Assembly: GCA_026003235.1 (NCBI GenBank)
Contig: BPGW01000004.1
Location: 146,665 to 188,819 of the forward strand
Reading direction: 5' to 3'
DNA: 42,155 bases
DNA from: Bacteroidia bacterium
GTDB taxonomy: Bacteria; Bacteroidota; Bacteroidia; SpSt-205
A program made the position numbers and the translations under genes. Numbering within the stretch: position 1 is the first letter of the stretch; every line of letters begins with the position of its first letter. The notes under the pieces are model-generated. The model searched no databases and was not told the DNA's origin. It saw only the letters and a list, made by a program, of their open reading frames with translations. Of the stretch, positions 31,033 to 42,155 are shown piece by piece.

Positions 31033-32449
31033 TTATGGGAGGAGCTGAAATAGCTTGTCCATCATGGCGTGGAGGGGGGCAGGAAGGGCGAGGAAGTGTT
31101 TTTCGCGGTAGAGGTGGAGCGATAAACCGGTCTTTTTGGCTTCTATCCAGTCAGGCAGGAGCGTGAGGCGCCATAAGAGCGCTTCGGTGGGATGCTTCTC
31201 CAGGTGGTCGTTCCAGGCCTGCACTGACCGGCTGAGAACCTTTCCTTGGAGGCGGTGCTGGTAGAGCTGGCGCACCCATTTTCTGAGGAGGGGAGCGGAG
31301 GCGATCTTAGGCTCCAGATGCTTCAGTAGGCGCAAAAGAGCCTCCATACTCCTAATCAGCGGCCCCCACGCCCCAGCTTCGGCAGCGAGAACGACCAGCA
31401 GAAGTTCTCCTTGCAGGCGCAGGAAGGGGGTCAATGGAGCTTGGAGGAGCTGGGGTATCTCTTCCAGGGCTTTTGGAGGTATGGCCGGCGAGGTAGAGGA
31501 GTTGCGCCCACGTGAGCCCATTTTCATAGGTGTAGAGGGATTGCCGGCGCACCTGCCGGTCCAAAGCTTCCTTGTAGTAGGGGAGGAAGCTGGGTGGGGC
31601 GTACCGCAGCAAGGTGAGCAAAACCCTATTCAGGAGGACCGCCTGGTACTGTGGTGGGAGGGGTGGGGATAGCCCTTCCCATAGGGGTACCAGGGTCTCT
31701 ATAGGCGAGCTGGCCATCAGGTGCACCAGCCAGGCGTTGAGGCGGGTAGGAACAGCGTTCGCAGGTAGCCGCTCGTACCATCGCAGGGCTTCCTCCAGGT
31801 CGGCTCGGGCTATGGCGTACAAGGCCCGGAGGTTAGCTTCCTGGGCGGCTTGATCCGGCTGGGCAGGTAGGGGTTTTTGCCAGCGAGGATGCCGTGCCAG
31901 CCGTGCCAATAGACGCTGCGCCGATCGCGTGTAAGAACCCCCATGTTCTCGCAAAAGCCGGTGAAAAAGCAGTTGGAGGCGTTGTGTCTCAAGGTTTTGT
32001 TGAAGCTTCTCAAGTTCTGTTTGCAACTTTTGGAGGGTCCAGGTGCTTTGGCGAAGCTTACCTTCGGCGATCTCCCATCGCAGCCGCTGGAAAAGAAATG
32101 AGAGCCTGTCCAGCGGCTCGGAGGGTAGGCGCTCCAAAAGGGCGAAGGCTTCTTCTTTCAGGCCGGCTTGGTAGTAGAGGGTAGCTCCTGTCAGCACCCA
32201 CGCAGGTCGGGCCGGAGCCCGCAAAGGATGGTTGAGATGCCCACTCAGCCAAGCCCGCCGCCATATCCACCGTTCGGCGCGCTGGGCCAGTTCTTTCTCC
32301 GAGCCGGAGAGCACCTGTGGTACGCCCGTTTGGCGCAGACGAACCAGCAAGGCTTGCGTTTTGGGGCCCAGTTCTTGCTTGGCGGCCCAAAGGAGCGCTT
32401 CCCACGCTTCACCCGATAGCCGACGCAGGTAGGTTTGGAGCCTCCCCAT
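31033..32449 (-). CDS. Alpha-helical repeat protein, function unknown (one frameshift)
   Basis: About 472 codons. Nearly the whole sequence is leucine-, alanine- and arginine-rich amphipathic helices (for example ALLERLPSEPLDRLSFLFQR and LARADLEEALRWYERLP-like pairs), suggesting TPR-like or other helical repeats; no catalytic motif and no signal peptide are seen. Cytoplasmic scaffold is a guess. The frame changes near 31472, where the reading should pass from LLYLAG to KALEEIPQLLQAPLTPFLR; the net length indicates one extra base. The start at MGRLQTYLRRL is chosen because an exact -7 element ends 7 bases before it, overlapping the longer open frame. Confidence 0.6.
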
Positions 32450-32456
32450 AGTCCAC

Positions 32457-32464
32457 CAAAAATA
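32457..32464 (-). promoter_or_regulatory. -7 promoter element TATTTTTG
   Basis: Exact TAnnTTTG on the minus strand, ending 7 bases before the ATG at 32449. Confidence 0.6.
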
Positions 32465-32553
32465 GCCCAAATCAGGCTCTGCAGGCCTACTTCCGATTCT
32501 CTCCCGGTCTACCAGACCCTCATCTGAAGCGCAGTTTGGGAGTTCGCGTTCCC

Positions 32554-32561
32554 GAACTTTG
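32554..32561 (+). promoter_or_regulatory. Near-consensus -7 element GAACTTTG
   Basis: One mismatch to TAnnTTTG, ending 7 bases before the ATG at 32569. It shows that the longer TTG-initiated frame from 32536 is not the start. Confidence 0.45.
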
Positions 32562-32568
32562 TACAGAT

Positions 32569-34071
32569 ATGAAAGCGCGTGCGATAATCACAGGATTGGG
32601 GGCGATAGCCCTCGTTTGGGCCAACGACCTACGCATCACGAATTTCTCGGTCAACCAAGCGGCCCAGACCGTGACTTTTAGCATTCAATGGAGCAATGCG
32701 TGGCGCCTTACCACCCCGCCTGGCAACTGGGATGCCGTGTGGGTATTTGTGAAGTTCCGGCCCTGTAATGCCTATACAGACCCTTGGACGCATGGTCAGA
32801 TTAGCACCACGCTTGCGGACCATACGTTTCCTGCGCAGCTTGAGCCGGTGCTCTCGGACGGTAGCGCGGTGGGCATTGACCCTGCGCCTAACAACCTGGG
32901 CGTGATGCTCCGCCCTGCTGCGGCGGGCACTTACGCTACCCTGGGCCCGGTAACCGTCACCCTCAAGGTAACGAATATCCCCGCCACGGGCAGCTACGAC
33001 TTCCGCATCTTCGGCATTGAGATGGTCTTCATCCCTCAGGGCAGTTATGTGCTGGGCACCTTGAATGGATGGTATAACTACGACGATGGAGCGGCCTACG
33101 CTTTCGACCAGAATGGAAACAACGACAACCCCCACGTTCCTTACAACATCACCTCCGAGAATTCGGTTGCCCTCAAATGGGCCGGCTCGGGCGCCACTTC
33201 TATAACGGTACCGGCGGCCTTTCCCAAAGGCTACAAGCCCTTCCATGTGATGAAGTACGAGATCTCCCAAGGCCAGTATGCGGCTTTCCTCAGTACCCTC
33301 CCTTCGGGGGCTGCCTCGCTGCGCTATCCGGGTAACTATAACAGCAATAGAAACCGCTTGGCGAGTAATGGAAGCTACCCCAACCAGTACTATTCGGACC
33401 GGGAAGACCGTACGCAAAACTATATCTCCTGGCATGATCTGGCGGCTTATTTGGACTGGGCTGCACTCCGACCGCTTACGGAGATGGAGTACGAGAAGAT
33501 CTGTCGGGGTCCGCTCCCAGAAGTACGAGGGGAGTACGCCTGGGGCACGACGAATATCACTTTTGGGACGACCCTGAGCCTCACACCTGAAAACGGCACC
33601 GAGGTTTTCAGCGCGCCGGCCAACGCTAACTGCACTGGCTATCTTGGATGGGGTGTAAACTATACTGGAGGCGATGGCGGGCAGGGTCCTGTCCGGGTGG
33701 GGATTCACGCGAAGCCCGGCTCTCCTACCCGGGAAGCCAGCGGCGCCGCTTACTATGGCGTGCTTGACATGAGTGGGAATGTCTGGGAAATGGTGGTGAT
33801 GGTCAGTGCGCCGGATGGTACGGTAGGAGCTCCTGCGTACGATGGCAAGTGGGGCGATGGGGTTTTAGACTGGACCACGGGCCAAGCCAATGAGACCACC
33901 TGGCCCCTCGGCAATCCAGGGGGCTTCGGTTTCCGAGGGGGTTCGTGGGGAGATGACTGGCGGTACCACCGGGTCTCTGGGCGATGGTGTTCTAGACCAG
34001 GTCATACTTGCGGGTGGACGCGCGATCCTAACGGTCGAGGTGGAGGTCAGGGGGGGCGAGGCGCTCGCTAA
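32569..34071 (+). CDS. Secreted SUMF1/formylglycine-generating-enzyme-fold protein
   Basis: 500 residues. Signal peptide MKARAIITGLGAIALVWAND; an N-terminal beta domain (ITNFSVNQAAQTVTFSIQW) found in front of several Bacteroidota SUMF1 proteins; then the SUMF1 fold from about residue 155: MVFIPQGSYVLG, HVMKYEISQGQYAAFL, RPLTEMEYEKICRG, LDMSGNVWEMV and GFRGGSWGDDWRYHRVSGR. The closely spaced copper-binding cysteines of true formylglycine-generating enzymes are not evident, so it is more likely a structural or sugar-binding relative, as GldK and GldJ are in gliding/T9SS machinery. It is 12 bases upstream of the giant T9SS protein and probably co-transcribed. The extreme C-terminus (RGGGQGGRGAR) is compositionally odd but may be the normal end. 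Confidence 0.78.
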   Translation: MKARAIITGLGAIALVWANDLRITNFSVNQAAQTVTFSIQWSNAWRLTTPPGNWDAVWVFVKFRPCNAYTDPWTHGQISTTLADHTFPAQLEPVLSDGSAVGIDPAPNNLGVMLRPAAAGTYATLGPVTVTLKVTNIPATGSYDFRIFGIEMVFIPQGSYVLGTLNGWYNYDDGAAYAFDQNGNNDNPHVPYNITSENSVALKWAGSGATSITVPAAFPKGYKPFHVMKYEISQGQYAAFLSTLPSGAASLRYPGNYNSNRNRLASNGSYPNQYYSDREDRTQNYISWHDLAAYLDWAALRPLTEMEYEKICRGPLPEVRGEYAWGTTNITFGTTLSLTPENGTEVFSAPANANCTGYLGWGVNYTGGDGGQGPVRVGIHAKPGSPTREASGAAYYGVLDMSGNVWEMVVMVSAPDGTVGAPAYDGKWGDGVLDWTTGQANETTWPLGNPGGFGFRGGSWGDDWRYHRVSGRWCSRPGHTCGWTRDPNGRGGGQGGRGAR

Positions 34072-34083
34072 CCGCGGCGACTT

Positions 34084-37000
34084 ATGTGGGGTCGTGGGAT
34101 TTTGGGCTGGGCTATAGGGGGCTCCCTTCTCCTTGTAGCCCAGCCCCCAGCTAACGACAACTGCACCAACGCCGCGTTTATTTCTTTTGGCAGCCCTCAT
34201 AATCCCTATGCGGTAGGTACCTTCTACAGCGATACGGTAGATATCACGGCCGCGACCCTCCAGGCAGGGGAGTATATCCCTGCGGGCGTACCGAATGGGA
34301 AGACCGTCTGGTATCGGTTTTACCTGCCGACCACCCGTACGGTGCGCATCGTTTTGCGGCAGGTGGGCACCAGCATTGACCCCACGCACGTAGGGTGGAC
34401 CCTCTATCGGACAAATAGCTGCTTGCCGGGCGCTGCCCAGCGCGTGGATCCCCCCATCGTCCTCATGGAGGGGTATACGCATGCCTGCCTAAAGCGGGGT
34501 TGGTACCTCGTCCAAGTAGGGGCCAACCTGGTAGCCAGCGGCCAGATTTTCTTAGAGCTTATCGTTTCATCACCCCAAATAGAGGCAGGGGCAGAGGCGT
34601 ATTATGACCACATGGCTACCGCACAGAACTTGGGGCTGCTTTCTACCTCCTCCTCCAGTGTGCTGTTGAAGGATGTGACTTTTGACTATGCATGTCAGTC
34701 GGTAAGTGAGGGCGAGGTGATTTGTGACAACGATTCAAGTTGGAGCAAGAGCACCTGGCATGTGTTTCGTACGGATGGGCATGTGGACTGGGTGGGCATA
34801 GAGCTGAGCGAGGACCCTTGGAATAGCGGCAACCCCACGCCTCGGGAGTGGCGCCTTTTCGTGTACCAGGGGAATGCCCTGACGGATTCGGCCAGCGGCC
34901 TCACCCCCCTCGTGAGCTGTGTGCCTCTGGTGCAGAGCAGCGCGAGCGTCCCCTCTCGGTACGACTTTCTATGCCAGCTTCAGCCGAATACGTACTACAC
35001 TATCCGAATTCTTGGGCGCACCGATTATGCCCATCGCGTCCGACTACGCCTCTATGAGCGAGGCAGCCAACCGAGCGTTTCTCCCAATCCCCTTACGATC
35101 CCCTCTACGCACAACTTAGGGACCTTAGCGTTTGGGCCGACATATACCGTAACTGATTACTGGAGCTGCGCTTCTCGCATCAGCTCCAACCTCTGCGGAA
35201 GTCTGGGTACAGCGGTCACGCCTGACGATACGATTGGGGATTTTGACTTAGCGTTGTACTACACCTTCACGCTGAGTGGAGCTGCGCATGTGCGGCTTTG
35301 GCATACTAACCCTTGGTGGTGGTACTACTGCATGGGCACGGTGCGGTTCCGGGTCTTTCAGGGGGTGCCGGCCGTGGATGGGTGTAATCTGACCCACCGA
35401 GCCACGGTGGATAACGATGGGTGGATTCAGTGTCTGGAAGCTGGAACGTATACGGTGCAGGTGTTGGCTCGGCTTAACCGTTCGGTGCTTTGGGGGACTT
35501 GCTGGGGCCCTTATTCGGCGCTGGGACTTCCGGTAAATCTCCACATAGCCTTGGGGTCTACGCCCCAGCAGCGGTTTGGTCTCCATGTGCGCCCTGACGA
35601 AGCCGACCTCATCAACGGTGGGACTCCCCTCACGCCTGGGGTGACTTACTACGCTACTTGGGATACGCTGGATTGTCGCACTACCGTGCTGCCCGCGGGA
35701 GATGTATGTGGCGGTGGAAACAATCGCGCCATCTATCGGATTATCCAAGTGGACCAGCCAGGTATCTTAGAGGTAGGCGGTGGGAACTGGTGGCGCTTTC
35801 GCTACCGCCTCTATAGGGGAGATGCGCGGGTAGAGCCTATCGTCGCTGGCCGCATTCAGAATCTTATTGACCAGATGGGATGCCAAGATCTGTACTGGCC
35901 CGCGAAAGTGTGCGTAACGCCAGGCTATTATACGCTGGTGAGCTTTGGGGATGATGGAGACATCGGAGAGCGAGATCGGCCTTGGGTGCGTCTGCATGTG
36001 TTTCCGCCAGGGGAAAGGCGATTTTATGATCCTTCTTCGCCGGTTTCACTGCCGGGGGACCCCGACCCGCGTCCCCGCGTAGAGCAGGTTGGCACGCTTG
36101 GAGGGTAGCACGAACTCCCTTACAGCTACTTGGACCCGAGTCACCTGTGACGACAATCCCCTTACGATTTTGGGCTACGCGCCTTGTGGCGGGGCCACCA
36201 AGCAGTTTTACTGGGAAGTGTACATCAGCGAGCCGAGCCTCGTGACTTTTTCGCCTCAATATGATTATGTCGCCTGGCCGGAGTTAGGGGTGGCCGGCTG
36301 GCGGACTTTTCGGGGAAGGATTAGTGACGGTTCCCTTACTGCGCTTGAGCGGGATTGTCACGGAGGGTTTACTGCCTGTATGAGCCCAGGGTGGTACACT
36401 TTTGTGGTGTATGCGTATGGGGGCACCTACAGCTCTCCCAGCTACAGCAGCGGGCGGGGCGGGGCTATCGGAAATCGCATCTGGTTTACAATTAGCCGGG
36501 ACCCTCGCTCTCAGAAGTATGGCACTTTTGCTACGGCAGACCGGCCAGGCAATCTGGATTGGGTTCCCCACTATGTCTATGCCCCTAATCAGCACCGTAG
36601 CTATACCCTGGACTGGGAGTTTTGGCCTTGCTCGAACAATCTTCCTTTTCCGGCGGGCGTTACTCCTTGCGGAGCGGGGCAAAATCGCGTGAGTTATCGG
36701 GTTTTTTCTGTGACGCGCCCCAGCTACCTGGTCATTTATCAGAGTGGGTGCTATGCCAGTTCCCGCCTGTATCAGGGGGATATTACGGCGCTTACGCCGC
36801 CCTTTACGGTGGTGCATGAGTGTTTTTCAGGAACGGGGCGGGTTTGCTGGGTGCCGCCAGGCACCTATACGCTGGTCACGTTTGCGGGGGATGGATGCAT
36901 AGGCCAGACCTATACGCCTACGATTTATGTAGATTCTGTGGGCTATTCCCTGCACAACTATGCTGCGCTGGCGTATGATTTTGGGGCTTTACCTGCGGAC

Positions 37001-40000
37001 AATACCGAGTATCGCACAAGGCCGGGGGATCCTCTGGGGCCGTATGGGCGGCCGGGTAGCACGGACTGGATTTTCTGTACCACGGACGCTTTTGCCTCCG
37101 ATCCCGTCAACAACTGTCCGGTAGGGGGGTGTGAATACCGATCCGCCTTCGGATAATCCCCCGACGGTGCTCCCTGACCGGCGTCGTAACCTGTGGTACA
37201 CTTTCGTAGCGGGGGGCAATGTACGGGTGCACGTGAGCGTGTATCCGCAGACGCCGGGTACAGGCTGGCAACCCGCTTTCGCCGTATACGAGAGCGACGA
37301 CCCCCCAGGTGCTTTTCCTGGAAGCGTAGACTCTACCGTAGCCAGTGGCCTGACTCTGATGGCTTCGTCTCAGGGGTGGTGGTGGTGCTGTGACCAGTAC
37401 CAAACGATTAGCTTCCAGCGAGATGGCTGTAAGCCCCCTAAACGATATTATGTGGTAGTCTATCGGAACACCTGCGGCAAGGAGCCCAACATTCAAGTAG
37501 AGGTGGGGGTACGGCTGGAGCCCCTGCCGGGCGGCGGAGTCAACTATGACCACTACTCCGAAGCCAATGTGATTACGGGCAACCCTACCCTTCAGTGCGA
37601 CCAGCCTTATACATGGACGGCCTTGCCCGCGGGCACTTACACGGGCTGTCAAGGAGACCTCACCTGCGCCACGAAAGACCCCACGGATCAGAACACGTGC
37701 GGTAATCGCACTATCTGGTATGCCTTTGAGTCGGCTATTACAGGGTACATCTATCTCAACTACGATCGGCCGGGTGCTTCGCCGCCGGACAATTTCCGGT
37801 ATAACCCCGATGATATTCAGCTGTATTACCAGGTGGTGCCGGGAGACTCCTCCAGCACAGGGCTGGTACGAGTGCCTCTTACAGCTGTATGGGCTACGCA
37901 CCCCGACTTAGGCTATCGGTATTGGGGGCGAGGGTGTATCCGTCCTGGCCGGTACTACTTGATGTTGACCGGCTGTAACCATCTGGGGCTGGTGGTCCCG
38001 CGCATTTGGCTGCAAGAGCACATCGGAGACCATTGCTACGACTCGCTCACCATCAGCGTAAGTGCGGCAGGTGGACCCTACTCGGCTAATCTCTTCATTG
38101 ACTGCTTCACGATAGGGGAAGGGGCAGGAGAACAGGACACAATCATGGCCTGCTTCGGTACGCCCGTGGGTAAGAAATCCGCCTGGGTGCTTGTACAGAA
38201 CCTCACCCCCGACACCATGGACTTTGATGTGCAGATCGTGGAGAACACCACAGCGCTTGGTAGCCAGGTGTTGTATCGGGTGCTAACAGGGAACTGCTTG
38301 ACCATGAACCAGGAAGAATGCGTGGCCGAAGGCACCTACGTAACCCTGCACCTGAAATGCCGCCCACCCTTCAAGAGCTTTTGGATTCAGATTGTCATGC
38401 CCGATTGGGCGACGGGGGATATCACCGTAAATGTCACCGCTAATCCTATTACGCAGACTTGTATTCCTCCTGATCCGGAGCGCCCCCGAGCTAACTTTGA
38501 CTTTATAGGCACCTGTTTAGGCCAGACTACGCAGTTCTTGAATTATTCTTCTGTGGGTCCGGGTATCTCGTACTACTGGAACTTTGGGGATGGGGCTACT
38601 TCTACCCTCTTTCAGCCGCAACACACCTATGCAGCGGCCGATACCTACCTGGTGTGCTTAGGGGTCGGCAACGGGAGCCAATCAGATACCGCCTGCCGCT
38701 GGGTTATCATTTATCCTAATCCGGGGGTGAGTGTGGGGATGTCCCCTACCTCGCCTGTAAACTTGGGGGTACCGATTACTTTCTCGCCGACTTATGTGGA
38801 TACCGTGGTCGGTACAGGCCCTACGATATACTGGAACTTCTGCGCAGGCGGGGGAAGTTGTGGGGCTTCGCAGGTGGATTACATTGGGCCGGTGCCGCCC
38901 CCTGTATGGTATACCATCCCAGGTCCTAAGCGGGTCTGTGTGACGGTCGTGAATGGAACGGGGTGCGATAGCACCTTCTGTATAGATTTTGAGGTCATCT
39001 GGCCGCCTCGTCCCGGAGGGCCGTACGATGGCGCAGCGACAGCTTATGTAACAAGCACCTGCCCTCGGCCTGCCTATGCGGGGGGGCCGTATGATGGGGC
39101 AGCTACGCAGGTTCTTTCAGCTGGATGCGCGCTGCCGTATGCGGGCGGGCCGTACGATGGCGCCAGTGGTGAGGTAGTCTTAGCGAGCTGTGCGGTGGCG
39201 GTGTATCCGGGTGGGCCGTACGATGGGGCAGCTACGCAGGTGTGCTGGGTGGATGTGCGCTGCCGTATGCGGGTGGGCCGTACGATGGCGCCAGTGGTGA
39301 GGTAGTCTTAGCGAGTTGTGCGGTGGCGGTGTATCCGGTGGGCCGTACGATGGGGCAGCTACGCAGGTGGTGCTGGGTGGATGTGCGCTGCCGTACGTGG
39401 GTGGGCCGTACGATGGCGCCAGTGGTGATGTAGTCTTAGCGAGTTGTGCGGTGGCGGTGTATCCGGGTGGGCCGTACGATGGGGCAGCTACGGCTTTTTC
39501 TGGGGCGATCTGCTGGCCTATCACGGAGTACACCGGAGGACCTTACGATGGATCTGCTGTGGCTTCCCTCATCAACTGTCCTCCACCTATTCATCCGTAT
39601 GCGGGTGGGCCGTACGACGGGGCCAGTGGTGAGGTAGTCTTAGCGAGTTGTGCGGTGGCGGTGTATCCGGGTGGGCCGTACGACGGGGCAGCCACACAGG
39701 TGGTGCTGGGTGGATGCACGCTGCCGTATGCGGGTGGGCCGTACGATGGCGCCAGTGGTGAGGTAGTCTTAGCGAGCTGTGCGGTGGCGGTGTATCCTGG
39801 CGGGCCGTACGACGGGGTAGCCACACAGGTGGTGCTGGGTGGATGCACGCTGCCGTATGCGGGTGGGCCGTACGATGGCGCCAGTGGTGAGGTAGTCTTA
39901 GCAAGTTGTGCGGTGGCGGTGTATCCTGGCGGCCCGTACGATGGGTCAGCTACACAGGTGGTGCTGGGTGGATGCACGTTGCCGTATGCGGGTGGGCCGT

Positions 40001-41664
40001 ACGACGGGGCCAGTGGTGAGCTAGTCTTAGCGAGTTGTGCGGTGGCGGTGTATCCGGGTGGGCCATACGATGGGGCAGCTACGCAGGTGGTGCTGGGTGG
40101 GTGCCCCCTGCCCATTGCAGGAGGGCGTTATGATGGGTTTGCTACGGCTTACTGGGCTGCTTTTTCGGTGCGGGATACCGCGGTATGTGCCGGCTTGCCA
40201 GCCGCTCTCGTGGCGACTGCGCCTGCAAGCTGGTACGCCGTCCCATCAGGAGGGACCCCCGTCGCTACAGGAACGGCGACCTTAGCCATTCCTTCCCTTA
40301 CCCAATCCCAGCTCTACTATGTGGAAAATGGCTGCGTCAGTAATCGCGTAGAAGTGGCCGCAATCGCTGTACCTCGCCTGAATGCTAACTACTCTATCAG
40401 CGCGGGCCCTTACTGCCCCGACCAACCTGTCACTTTCACCAATCAGACGCTCGTCTCCGGATCCAGTCAGCCCAGCTTTGGGACGCTCATTACGGGCTTC
40501 GGTACGCATGGAACGGTGCCCTCTGTGGGGCGGCTTACCTTCTCTTCGGTGCAAACGGCCAACTTCGCCTACCTAACTGATGGGACGCACCAGCAGTGGC
40601 AAGCCTGGACAGCTAACAACGCTAGTGCCAGCACCCAATGGGCTATGTGGAACTACCCTATCCCCCGCAGCGTCAACCGGATTGTCTTCTGGGCCTGCCA
40701 GACCTGCGCAAGCGCCGCTCAGCGCCTCCCTCTGCGCGCCCGCCTTTATTACAACGATGGCTCGGGCTGGAAGCTGGCGAAAGTCTTCCGCTTTACCCCT
40801 GGAACCTACCTGTATGATAGTGGGGTATTTACCGAGACTCAGGTGATTTTTGCCCAGTTGTGGAAGCTGGAGTTTGATGTGAATGCGGCGAATGCACCGG
40901 CCTTTGGGGAGTTTCAGGTCTACTCCAGTTCGCCGGTGATAGGCGGTTCTGTGCAGTGGAGCTGTGATGGCGGCAGCACCTGGGCAGCCGGCAACAGCGC
41001 CTCCTGCAGCTGGTCCAGCGCAGGCACGTACACGGTGATGCAGGTCGTGTCGGCACCGGGGGCCTGCCCGGATACCGAACAGGTTTCGCTTACGGTGGAT
41101 CCCTGTGGGCCTTTGCCGGTGGTGCAGAGCGTCTTGACAGCTCGACCTGTCCCCCAAGCTCAGGTAGAATTGCGGTGGCAAGCTAATCTGCCTGCCCAGT
41201 ACGCTATTCTCCAGCGGCGCAGCGATACAGGCTGGGTGGCGATCTACCGACATCAGGTGGCCGGCACGCAGTCTTTCGTGTGGGTAGATAGCTTCCCCAG
41301 CTTCAGTCAGCCTAACCTGTACCGGGTGGTGAGCGAACACGGGCTGAGGGCGCTCGTCTACAGCAATGTAGCCGAAGCACGTTTTGAGATGGAGACGGCC
41401 TCAGAAGAGTTCGTGCGGGCTTTTCCGAATCCCCTCCAGGCCCTTCTCACGGTGCAGTTTGGCTTGTCCCAAGAACGCGAGGTGGAGATCCTCATCTATG
41501 ACATGAAGGGTTCCCAGGTAGCTTACCTGCGACCTACTCGGTATGCGGCAGGACTGCACGAGATAGTGCTCTATGCAGAGGGGTGGGCTACAGGGGTCTA
41601 TACCCTCCAGTTTGTACGGGACGGTCAGACCAAGAGCCTGAAGCTGCTGAAGATGGTGCCTTGA
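34084..41664 (+). CDS. Giant T9SS-secreted protein with eight beta domains, PKD domain and GGPYDG repeats (frame broken)
   Basis: About 2,527 codons in total, an exact multiple of three. Order: signal peptide (GWAIGGSLLLVAQ); PPANDNCTNA opening; roughly eight degenerate domains of 130-160 residues to about 38000, each ending in a Cys then PGxYTLVxxG-like strand; a PKD domain (YYWNFGDGATST, about 38570); 18 GGPYDG repeats (39009-40180); an Ig-like segment (VCAGLPAALVATAP); a lectin- or F5/8-like beta region; a fibronectin-like stretch; and a type A sorting domain (RAFPNPLQALLTV, then LIYDMKGSQVAYL, then ATGVYTLQFV). Breaks: near 36100; a G6 run at 37124-37129; and two missing G bases inside repeats near 39240 and 39335. 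It is probably a surface adhesin or matrix protein; the role is unproven. Confidence 0.78.
39009..40180 (+). repeat. 18-copy GGPYDG tandem repeat array, alternating 66- and 63-bp units
   Basis: Coding repeats beginning at 39009, 39075, 39138, 39204, 39266, 39332, 39394, 39460, 39529, 39598, 39664, 39727, 39793, 39856, 39922, 39985, 40051 and 40114. Two unit types alternate: A (22 residues, YAGGPYDGASG then EVVLASCAVAV) and B (21 residues, YPGGPYDGAAT then QVVLGGCTLP), giving a 129-bp period. The four A-B pairs from 39598 to 40113 are almost identical in DNA; the copies at 39460 and 39529 are 69 bp and divergent. The regular A and B units have one Cys at position 18. The first and last units are degenerate edges. 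Confidence 0.95.
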
Positions 41665-41760
41665 CAGGCCTAGGGCGGAGGCTGAGCGGCTGCGTACCGG
41701 GGTTGGGGGAAGAAGCGTTCGGGGGGTGGGGTGGTTTTTGGGGTGGTAGGGGAGAAAGCG

Positions 41761-41789
41761 GGGGGCCGGCGCCGCAGGCGCCGGCCCCC
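41761..41789. terminator. Perfect 13-bp G+C hairpin between convergent genes
   Basis: GGGGGCCGGCGCC (41761-41773) and its exact complement (41777-41789) around a GCA loop, in the 185-base gap between the giant T9SS gene and the ribonucleotide reductase gene. There is no strong T-run on either side (only CTTT-type runs), so it may be a bidirectional terminator or mRNA 3' stabiliser. I see nothing else in this gap. Confidence 0.5.
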
Positions 41790-41849
41790 TAGCCTTTAGC
41801 CTCCGCCCAAAAAACCCTCTAACCCAGCCTCAAAGCACCACCTGCCTAT

Positions 41850-42155
41850 TCACTGGCACGCTTCGCAGATCTCGCCTTCGCTCTCGGCATTCCATCGGCA
41901 CACCGCCCCTGAAATAGAAGTAGGTGTTTCCCAACTACCTAATACTTCTGCCCGAGACACGGTGCTCTTCTCTATCGCCGAAGCCCCCAGCGTACGCAGG
42001 TAGTAGGTCGTCTTTAGCCCAGCATGCCAGGCGTAGCGGTACATGTGGCTCAGTTCTTTCATGTCGGGCTGTGCCAGGTAAAGGTTCAGCGATTGGGATT
42101 GGTCTATCCATTTTTGGCGGTGGGCCGCCGCGTCAATTATCCGCTTCCAGGAAAT
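41850..42155 (-). CDS. Class I ribonucleotide reductase large subunit, C-terminal end
   Basis: Only the last 101 residues are in the window; the gene continues beyond 42155. The visible part has [18 protein letters not shown], then [20 protein letters not shown] and ASAIEKSTV, the highly conserved end of the catalytic (alpha) subunit barrel with the two radical-path tyrosines in TTYYLR. It finishes with CEACQ; this C-terminal Cys pair passes electrons from thioredoxin or glutaredoxin to the active site. The enzyme reduces ribonucleotides to deoxyribonucleotides with a radical-bearing beta subunit, which is not seen here. Confidence 0.93.

Follow-up and report, generated by a model that had tools for sequence, protein, structure and literature searches.

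A GGPYDG repeat array in a predicted type IX secretion cargo and its near-constant FGE-like gene neighbour

Background

What does a long row of near-identical repeats, nearly all with a single cysteine, do in a very large bacterial protein, and how does such a row stay uniform? The question is raised by a stretch of DNA from an uncultured bacterium related to Bacteroidia (GenBank assembly GCA_026003235.1, contig BPGW01000004.1, positions 146,665 to 188,819; genome labelled G000), which was analysed over its full 42,155 nucleotides and is hereafter called the window. Its forward strand carries, at 39006..40182, an array of 18 tandem units built around the motif GGPYDG. On balance the array is probably part of a type IX secretion system (T9SS) cargo, which would have a dedicated partner with the fold of formylglycine-generating enzyme (FGE), encoded directly upstream.

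Results and discussion

The array protein and its gene neighbour

Units were located by motif scan, with GG codons spanning 39015-40120, and read GGPYDG in 17 of 18 cases and GGRYDG in the last. They are spaced 66, 63, 66, 62, 65, 63, 66, 69, 69, 66, 63, 66, 63, 66, 63, 66 and 63 bp apart, a spacing that for the most part alternates between 66 and 63 bp. For the period, Tandem Repeats Finder returned 4.0 copies of 129 bp at 39595-40112 (92% matches) and 3.3 copies of 128 bp at 39075-39492 (93% matches). The 18 units and the 129-bp period that had been described in a first-pass annotation of the window are thereby confirmed. The same annotation gave one cysteine to every unit, which holds for 17 units but not for the last (GGRYDG), and a VxL(A/G)(S/G)C motif, which is limited to the regular units: it is missing from units 1, 2, 8, 9 and 18, unit 16 reads LVLASC, and in unit 4 it is disrupted by a deletion.

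The gene that contains the array encodes a protein of ~2,500 residues, with a PKD domain, the array, an Ig_7 domain and a T9SS sorting tail. It is read on the forward strand in four open pieces, i.e. an N-terminal part at 34084..36108, a second piece in another frame at 36089..37156, a third at 37131..39305 with PKD (38523-38693) and units 1-4, and a fourth at 39316..41664 with units 6-18, Ig_7 (40171-40374) and Por_Secre_tail (41422-41640). Together these align to residues 14-2536 of the 2,536-residue open frame of KatS3mg025, through 34075-36102, 36056-37126, 37104-39275 and 39337-41661, at 81, 85, 81 and 69% identity. When Pfam and NCBIfam were scanned with family cut-offs applied, the C-terminal sorting domain of the window piece was above cut-off in both (PF18962, E 2.1e-6; TIGR04183, E 2.9e-6). 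By its sorting domain the protein is thus a T9SS type A cargo, for which export to the surface is predicted. It resembles such cargo in its tail, its PKD and Ig_7 modules and its very long multidomain build, and differs in having an array that no model above cut-off covers and in the pairing of its gene with an FGE-like gene.

That second gene, which the first-pass annotation had overlooked, lies on the same strand at 32536..34071 and stops 12 bases before the array-gene piece at 34084. Its product (listed at 511 aa; the orthologues agree better with a Met near 32569 than with the listed start) is 78% identical to an orthologue over 504 aa and matches PF03781 at E 2.2e-14; the partners at L055 and L043 are also above cut-off and that at L046 is below it (17.8 of 23.3 bits). 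An apparent signal peptide, judged by eye, is followed by a conserved N-terminal region, the PF03781 domain and a conserved GGRGAR end. A true FGE has a catalytic cysteine pair after a GGS motif. This pair is absent here: the window reads RGGSWGDDWRYHRVSGR at that place, and none is shared among the 11 rows of the partner alignment (A8). No T9SS tail was matched in the partner and no lipobox was seen by eye, so that it may remain, and act, in the periplasm before export of the array protein.

The neighbourhood is close to constant. Examination of 67 loci yielded 68 array open reading frames (ORFs) from 66 of them (L113 gave none). Two with fewer than two recognised units were dropped from the count (L132 and L225, both with the gene) and L136, at a contig end, was set aside, which leaves 65; L056, L057, L060, L062 and two contig-end matches of G487 stayed outside the count. 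In a search with a profile of 12 FGE-like proteins, 63 of these 65 array ORFs, which come from 63 loci, proved to be preceded within 1.7 kb by an FGE-like gene of the same strand, at a distance between -175 and +182 bp in 58 of the 63. Nine of the scored loci had contributed to the profile, and outside these the partner is upstream in 54 of 56. As a control, 20 further stretches of the same genomes, each about 12.5 kb long, were chosen; three did not exist, and an FGE-like gene was found in none of the 17 scored. The gene is missing at two: L233, and L137, where the match is weak and the array may be spurious. Since the partner is also present for all 22 array ORFs under 360 aa, the array, and not the large N-terminal part, is the common element, and the near-constant adjacency suggests that the two products probably work together. 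At several loci two or three FGE-like genes stand in tandem before the array gene (L063 357-4982, L064 2-2812, L105 1776-4817 and L106 2718-5741).

A plausible mechanism starts from a neighbouring gene pair, from which a very large T9SS-exported protein with the array as its repeat segment would be made. The array would probably serve as a surface stalk or binding segment, in which short beta strands are joined by GGPYDG turns. The secreted FGE-fold product, lacking the catalytic cysteines, would most likely bind the repeats as an escort, docking or assembly factor, possibly in the periplasm before the array is exported.

For such a use of the FGE fold there is a precedent in PorK, which PMC12421860 describes as having that fold without the catalytic cysteines and acting as a docking hub. 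In GldK, another FGE-fold protein, Cys343 forms a disulfide to the outer membrane proteins SprF and PorG, according to PMC12635249, and the possible likeness to the partner extends to a cysteine as bonding site. The partner resembles PorK, GldK and GldJ in its PF03781 domain without the catalytic pair; it differs from them in its own conserved N-terminal region, where its cysteine is located, and in being the near-constant neighbour of a repeat gene. NCBIfam holds family models for GldK and PorK, and neither was matched by the four partners searched, of which those of the window and KatS3mg025 gave only a weak PvdO match, with no match at E up to 0.1 for the remaining two.

Several observations weigh against the pairing and export proposed here. 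L233 has a 15-unit array and no FGE-like gene in 4.2 kb upstream, and conversely the FGE-like genes of L162, L172 and L175 have no array within 1.5 kb, a distance at which a more distant array in a long gene would be missed. The C-termini of some array ORFs (e.g. L046, L101 and L127) are, by eye, unlike a T9SS tail, and a partner without such a tail or a lipobox may be left behind in the periplasm when the array protein is exported. Binding of partner and repeats is a proposal, co-transcription is presumed from gene order, and both structure predictions are of low confidence, the one used for a structure search giving no match at E <=0.001.

As to the fold, AlphaFold predictions were made for two alignments, A3 (15 rows; pLDDT 52, pTM 0.44) and A6 (23 rows; pLDDT 42, pTM 0.36), of which the first model shows, at low confidence, one or two strands per unit. 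Structure prediction, which the first-pass annotation had proposed, gave models of low confidence in both cases, and the roles suggested there (disulfide- or ligand-based stacking by the cysteines, and a stalk or adhesive function) gained no support from them. Foldseek with the A3 model listed 105 matches at E up to 10, none of them at E <=0.001, and no convincing match to the repeat was found among solved chains. CsgA, the curli subunit, has repeats of 22 residues, close to the array unit of about 22, and is among the Foldseek matches (probability 0.35, E 0.15); the array has another motif, and no curlin match in Pfam. A kelch or WD40 propeller, of which the YxGGxxDG motif is a look-alike, was considered and rejected: the array has a period of 22 and no blade matching a kelch or WD40 model, the proteins scanned gave no Pfam kelch match, and the match of profile A1 (mainly of the GGPYDG type) to the designed propeller Ika8 is at E 3.3e-7 for the whole sequence but at E 7.5 or worse for single stretches (81-150 for those of Ika8).

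Two other candidate roles for the partner were rejected. Conversion of the array cysteines to formylglycine is contradicted by the absence of the catalytic pair and by the presence of a partner beside arrays without cysteine. The partner stretch before GGRGAR (window about 33,930-34,071) is highly variable among orthologues, and the gene was considered as the target of a diversity-generating retroelement. RVT_1 was found in one of the 12 genomes asked (G013), and in neither G000 nor the eight congeners among them; a second copy of the partner's 3' end, as a template repeat, was not found in G000, which is 82% complete.

A wider GGxxDG family

Two profiles were used to delimit the repeat: A1 and a broader GGxxDG profile, A7. 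The class, phylum and family samples are draws from larger groups, E-values are per genome, and the first pass scores a limited number of candidates. A1 matched four of 395 genomes of the phylum sample at E 1e-5, namely that of the window and three with GGxxDG arrays that lack cysteine. A7 matched 38 of 395 genomes of the class sample at E 1e-4, the window's own included, and 17 of the 298 sampled from the G232 family, the matches being inspected in part in both cases. With the family defined here as tandem aromatic-x-GGxxDG units of about 19-29 residues, into which the window array fits, 33 of the 41 arrays with at least four units have exactly one cysteine per counted unit and six have none at all. 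On sequence grounds, then, the array is a branch of a wider GGxxDG family that includes cysteine-less branches.

The first-pass annotation had failed to place the repeat and mentioned loosely similar GGxxDG repeats elsewhere in the phylum; both statements hold. In the proteins scanned no Pfam or NCBIfam model reaches its cut-off over the repeat, the matches below it being JUPITER (E 0.5) and a 16-residue match to MerE (E 0.004), and neither these libraries nor the solved chains place it convincingly, while the broad profile did recover relatives of this kind. In the open-licence literature no description of a GGPYDG-type repeat was found, and papers with other GGxxDG spellings were off topic by title. 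A repeat family has been delimited, with matches in 38 of 395 sampled class genomes and a near-constant gene partner, which makes the repeat a testable two-component system.

Homogenisation of the array

Among the A-type units (3, 5, 7, 10, 12, 14 and 16) DNA identity amounts to 91-98%, and among the B-type units (4, 6, 11, 13, 15 and 17) to 84-95%. Units 10-17, at 39595..40110 on the forward strand, form four homogenised A-B pairs, as follows from the 129-bp period given by Tandem Repeats Finder and from the unit identities. Comparison with KatS3mg025 gives a different picture for different units: window A-type units reach at most 66% DNA identity with any unit there, and B-type units reach 71% with its unit 17, whereas the interior diverged pair, units 8-9 (39457..39594, forward strand), is 77% identical to the same-place unit for each of its members, and unit 18 is 75% identical. 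Window unit 17 has 70% identity to its same-place unit, but this is not evidence of descent by place, because units 11 and 13 reach 71% with that very unit; units 1 and 2 do not stand out against their same-place counterparts (60 and 56%). Judging from the identity of A-type units within the genome together with the match of units 8, 9 and 18 across species, each genome has homogenised its A-type units, while descent accounts for the interior pair and the last unit. The homogenisation that the first-pass annotation ascribed to recent unequal exchange or gene conversion is supported, and its diverged edge copies are real, but divergence is not confined to the edges: the interior pair is diverged too, and is itself conserved between species.

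Orthologues with the array in open frames occur in five of ten congeners (G003, G005, G006, G009 and G010), the other five giving weak matches or none. The frames are long and without stops, those of G003 and G009 being cut at a contig end. As to copy number, the congeners carry arrays of 10-18 units, and the six genus members have 18 (window), 18, 14, 10, 10 and 10. All of these are even, which fits steps of one A-B pair. On this view an array would gain or lose A-B pairs as a whole, by unequal exchange or gene conversion, and the same process would keep its regular units similar to one another in a given genome; the interior pair and the last unit would be held fixed, presumably by selection. 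These whole-pair steps are inferred from the counts. The array is thus a case of concerted evolution in a bacterial protein, from which particular repeat units are exempt.

How far the arrangement extends can be seen from more distant loci. An interior pair of longer units is present in eight of nine fully read loci, with L063 as the exception; the equivalence of these pairs in distant loci was judged by eye. Not all loci alternate strictly between A and B; by eye, L099 and L105 do not. KatS3mg025 has a second array (L108 9285-11277) with units of 25 residues, some of them identical, in two frames of 14 and 3 units. The window genome itself has a paralogue (L009 5018-11803, reverse strand), whose single open frame of 2,262 codons has the same build and five GGPYDG units of 24-25 aa; the FGE-like gene upstream of it is in pieces.

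The cysteines of array and partner

A cysteine in the WVFVKFRxC motif of the partner (Cys67 in the first row of A8; window 32764..32766, forward strand) accompanies cysteine-bearing arrays. In a first count of 47 partners, this column holds cysteine in 30 of 36 with cysteine arrays and in none of 11 with cysteine-less arrays. For an enlarged set, arrays with a cysteine in half of their units or more were scored as cysteine-bearing, and a partner cysteine anywhere in the motif loop was counted; the figures are then 29 of 31 and 0 of 25. Left out were partners shorter than 300 residues (L118, L221 and L228), those with an unreadable loop (L108, L117 and L134) and one with an unscorable array (L132), and L131 was scored as cysteine-less though one of its three units has a cysteine. 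The two exceptions (L129 and L133) have their array cysteine at another place within the unit. Six of the seven other cysteine-rich partner columns do not follow the array cysteine (p 0.10-0.29), while one does (19 of 34 versus 1 of 22, p 6e-5). On a quick tree of 60 partners, made with the motif columns excluded, the partner cysteine changes twice and the array cysteine four times, and independent pairs on the starred branches number one in the same direction, none in the opposite direction and two without difference, which is not significant. Because the tree needs just two changes of the partner cysteine, the linkage is unproven, and the association is best taken as a clade-level pattern in the sequences, i.e. 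a lead and not proof.

Two readings of these cysteines differ in where the bonds would lie. The partner's FRxC cysteine might bond to the one cysteine that each unit offers, which would make the array a row of covalent docking sites for FGE-fold subunits, or the partner might be a thiol escort for the repeats. This fits the co-occurrence in the enlarged set and the indifference of most other cysteine-rich columns, and has a precedent in the GldK bond (PMC12635249). Yet the association loses significance once relatedness is allowed for, the second column that follows the array would suit a bond inside the partner, and a partner retained in the periplasm could not stay bound to an exported array, so we regard such a bond as unlikely. 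Somewhat less doubtful, though still not the expected outcome, is that a beta stack is braced by bonds among the cysteines of the array (between neighbouring units, or between A and B units), to which the partner cysteine is unrelated. Exactly one cysteine per counted unit in 33 of 41 arrays, at a spacing regular enough for a ladder, agrees with this; the odd number of cysteines in the window (17) and in seven of nine full arrays (17, 9, 13, 9, 9, 9 and 11; the remaining two have 10 and 14) means that not all can pair inside the array, and the six arrays without any cysteine speak against it as well. The fullest version of the proposal, which we put forward as a long shot, would be a two-gene surface system of the Bacteroidota in which array cysteines every 19-29 residues form a covalent docking row for the FGE-fold partner encoded upstream, and in which unequal exchange of pairs, around an interior unit that stays fixed, adjusts the length. 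If the partner does bind or bond the repeats, this would extend the recently found roles of the FGE fold and of disulfides in type IX secretion and the gliding machinery.

Frame breaks and assembly quality

The first-pass annotation had overlooked two single-base deletions in the array. The ORF at 37131-39305 stops inside the array and that at 39316-41664 takes over. Unit 4 reads CAGGTGTGCTGG where other units read CAGGTGGTGCTGG, and where units 5 and 6 meet the sequence is TATCCGGTGGG in place of TATCCGGGTGGG, one base being missing in each case. Because of these deletions, which lie at 39228..39352 on the forward strand according to the ORF list, the motif scan and the alignment to KatS3mg025, the array has no single open frame. 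Two of the four frame changes of the whole gene thus fall within the array.

Whether these breaks are real can be judged from the assembly itself. Window 41206-42155, the end of its contig (C4), recurs at the start of contig C3 (L044 1-954), with 948 of 954 columns identical, four one-base gaps and two substitutions. All four gaps are in runs of G or C, and two of them are inside the array gene. Comparison of the two copies indicates that they are probably unjoined contig ends with homopolymer errors, a true duplication being a possible alternative source. With four frame changes, the window copy might also be read as a decaying pseudogene. However, the first three pieces have kept their identity to KatS3mg025 (the fourth, which holds most of the array, less so), homopolymer indels occur in the same assembly where contigs C4 and C3 overlap, completeness is 82% versus 96-99% in the five congeners carrying the gene, and the FGE-like gene beside the paralogue is broken in the same genome as well. 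Decay is accordingly improbable, and the frame breaks are most likely assembly errors. Near-identical tandem units are hard to assemble, and the true copy number in the window may differ from 18, but that the length or near-identity of the array is itself an artefact is very improbable: the five congeners carry arrays of their own in open frames, and G006, a single-contig genome, also has 18 units. The array is therefore taken as genuine.

Two further observations concern the flanks of the gene pair. Upstream of the partner, on the reverse strand, a gene at window 31033-32470 is read in two overlapping frames, possibly another frame error. At about 41766-41793 a G+C-rich inverted repeat, terminator-like by eye, sits between the array gene and an opposite-strand open frame at the contig end.

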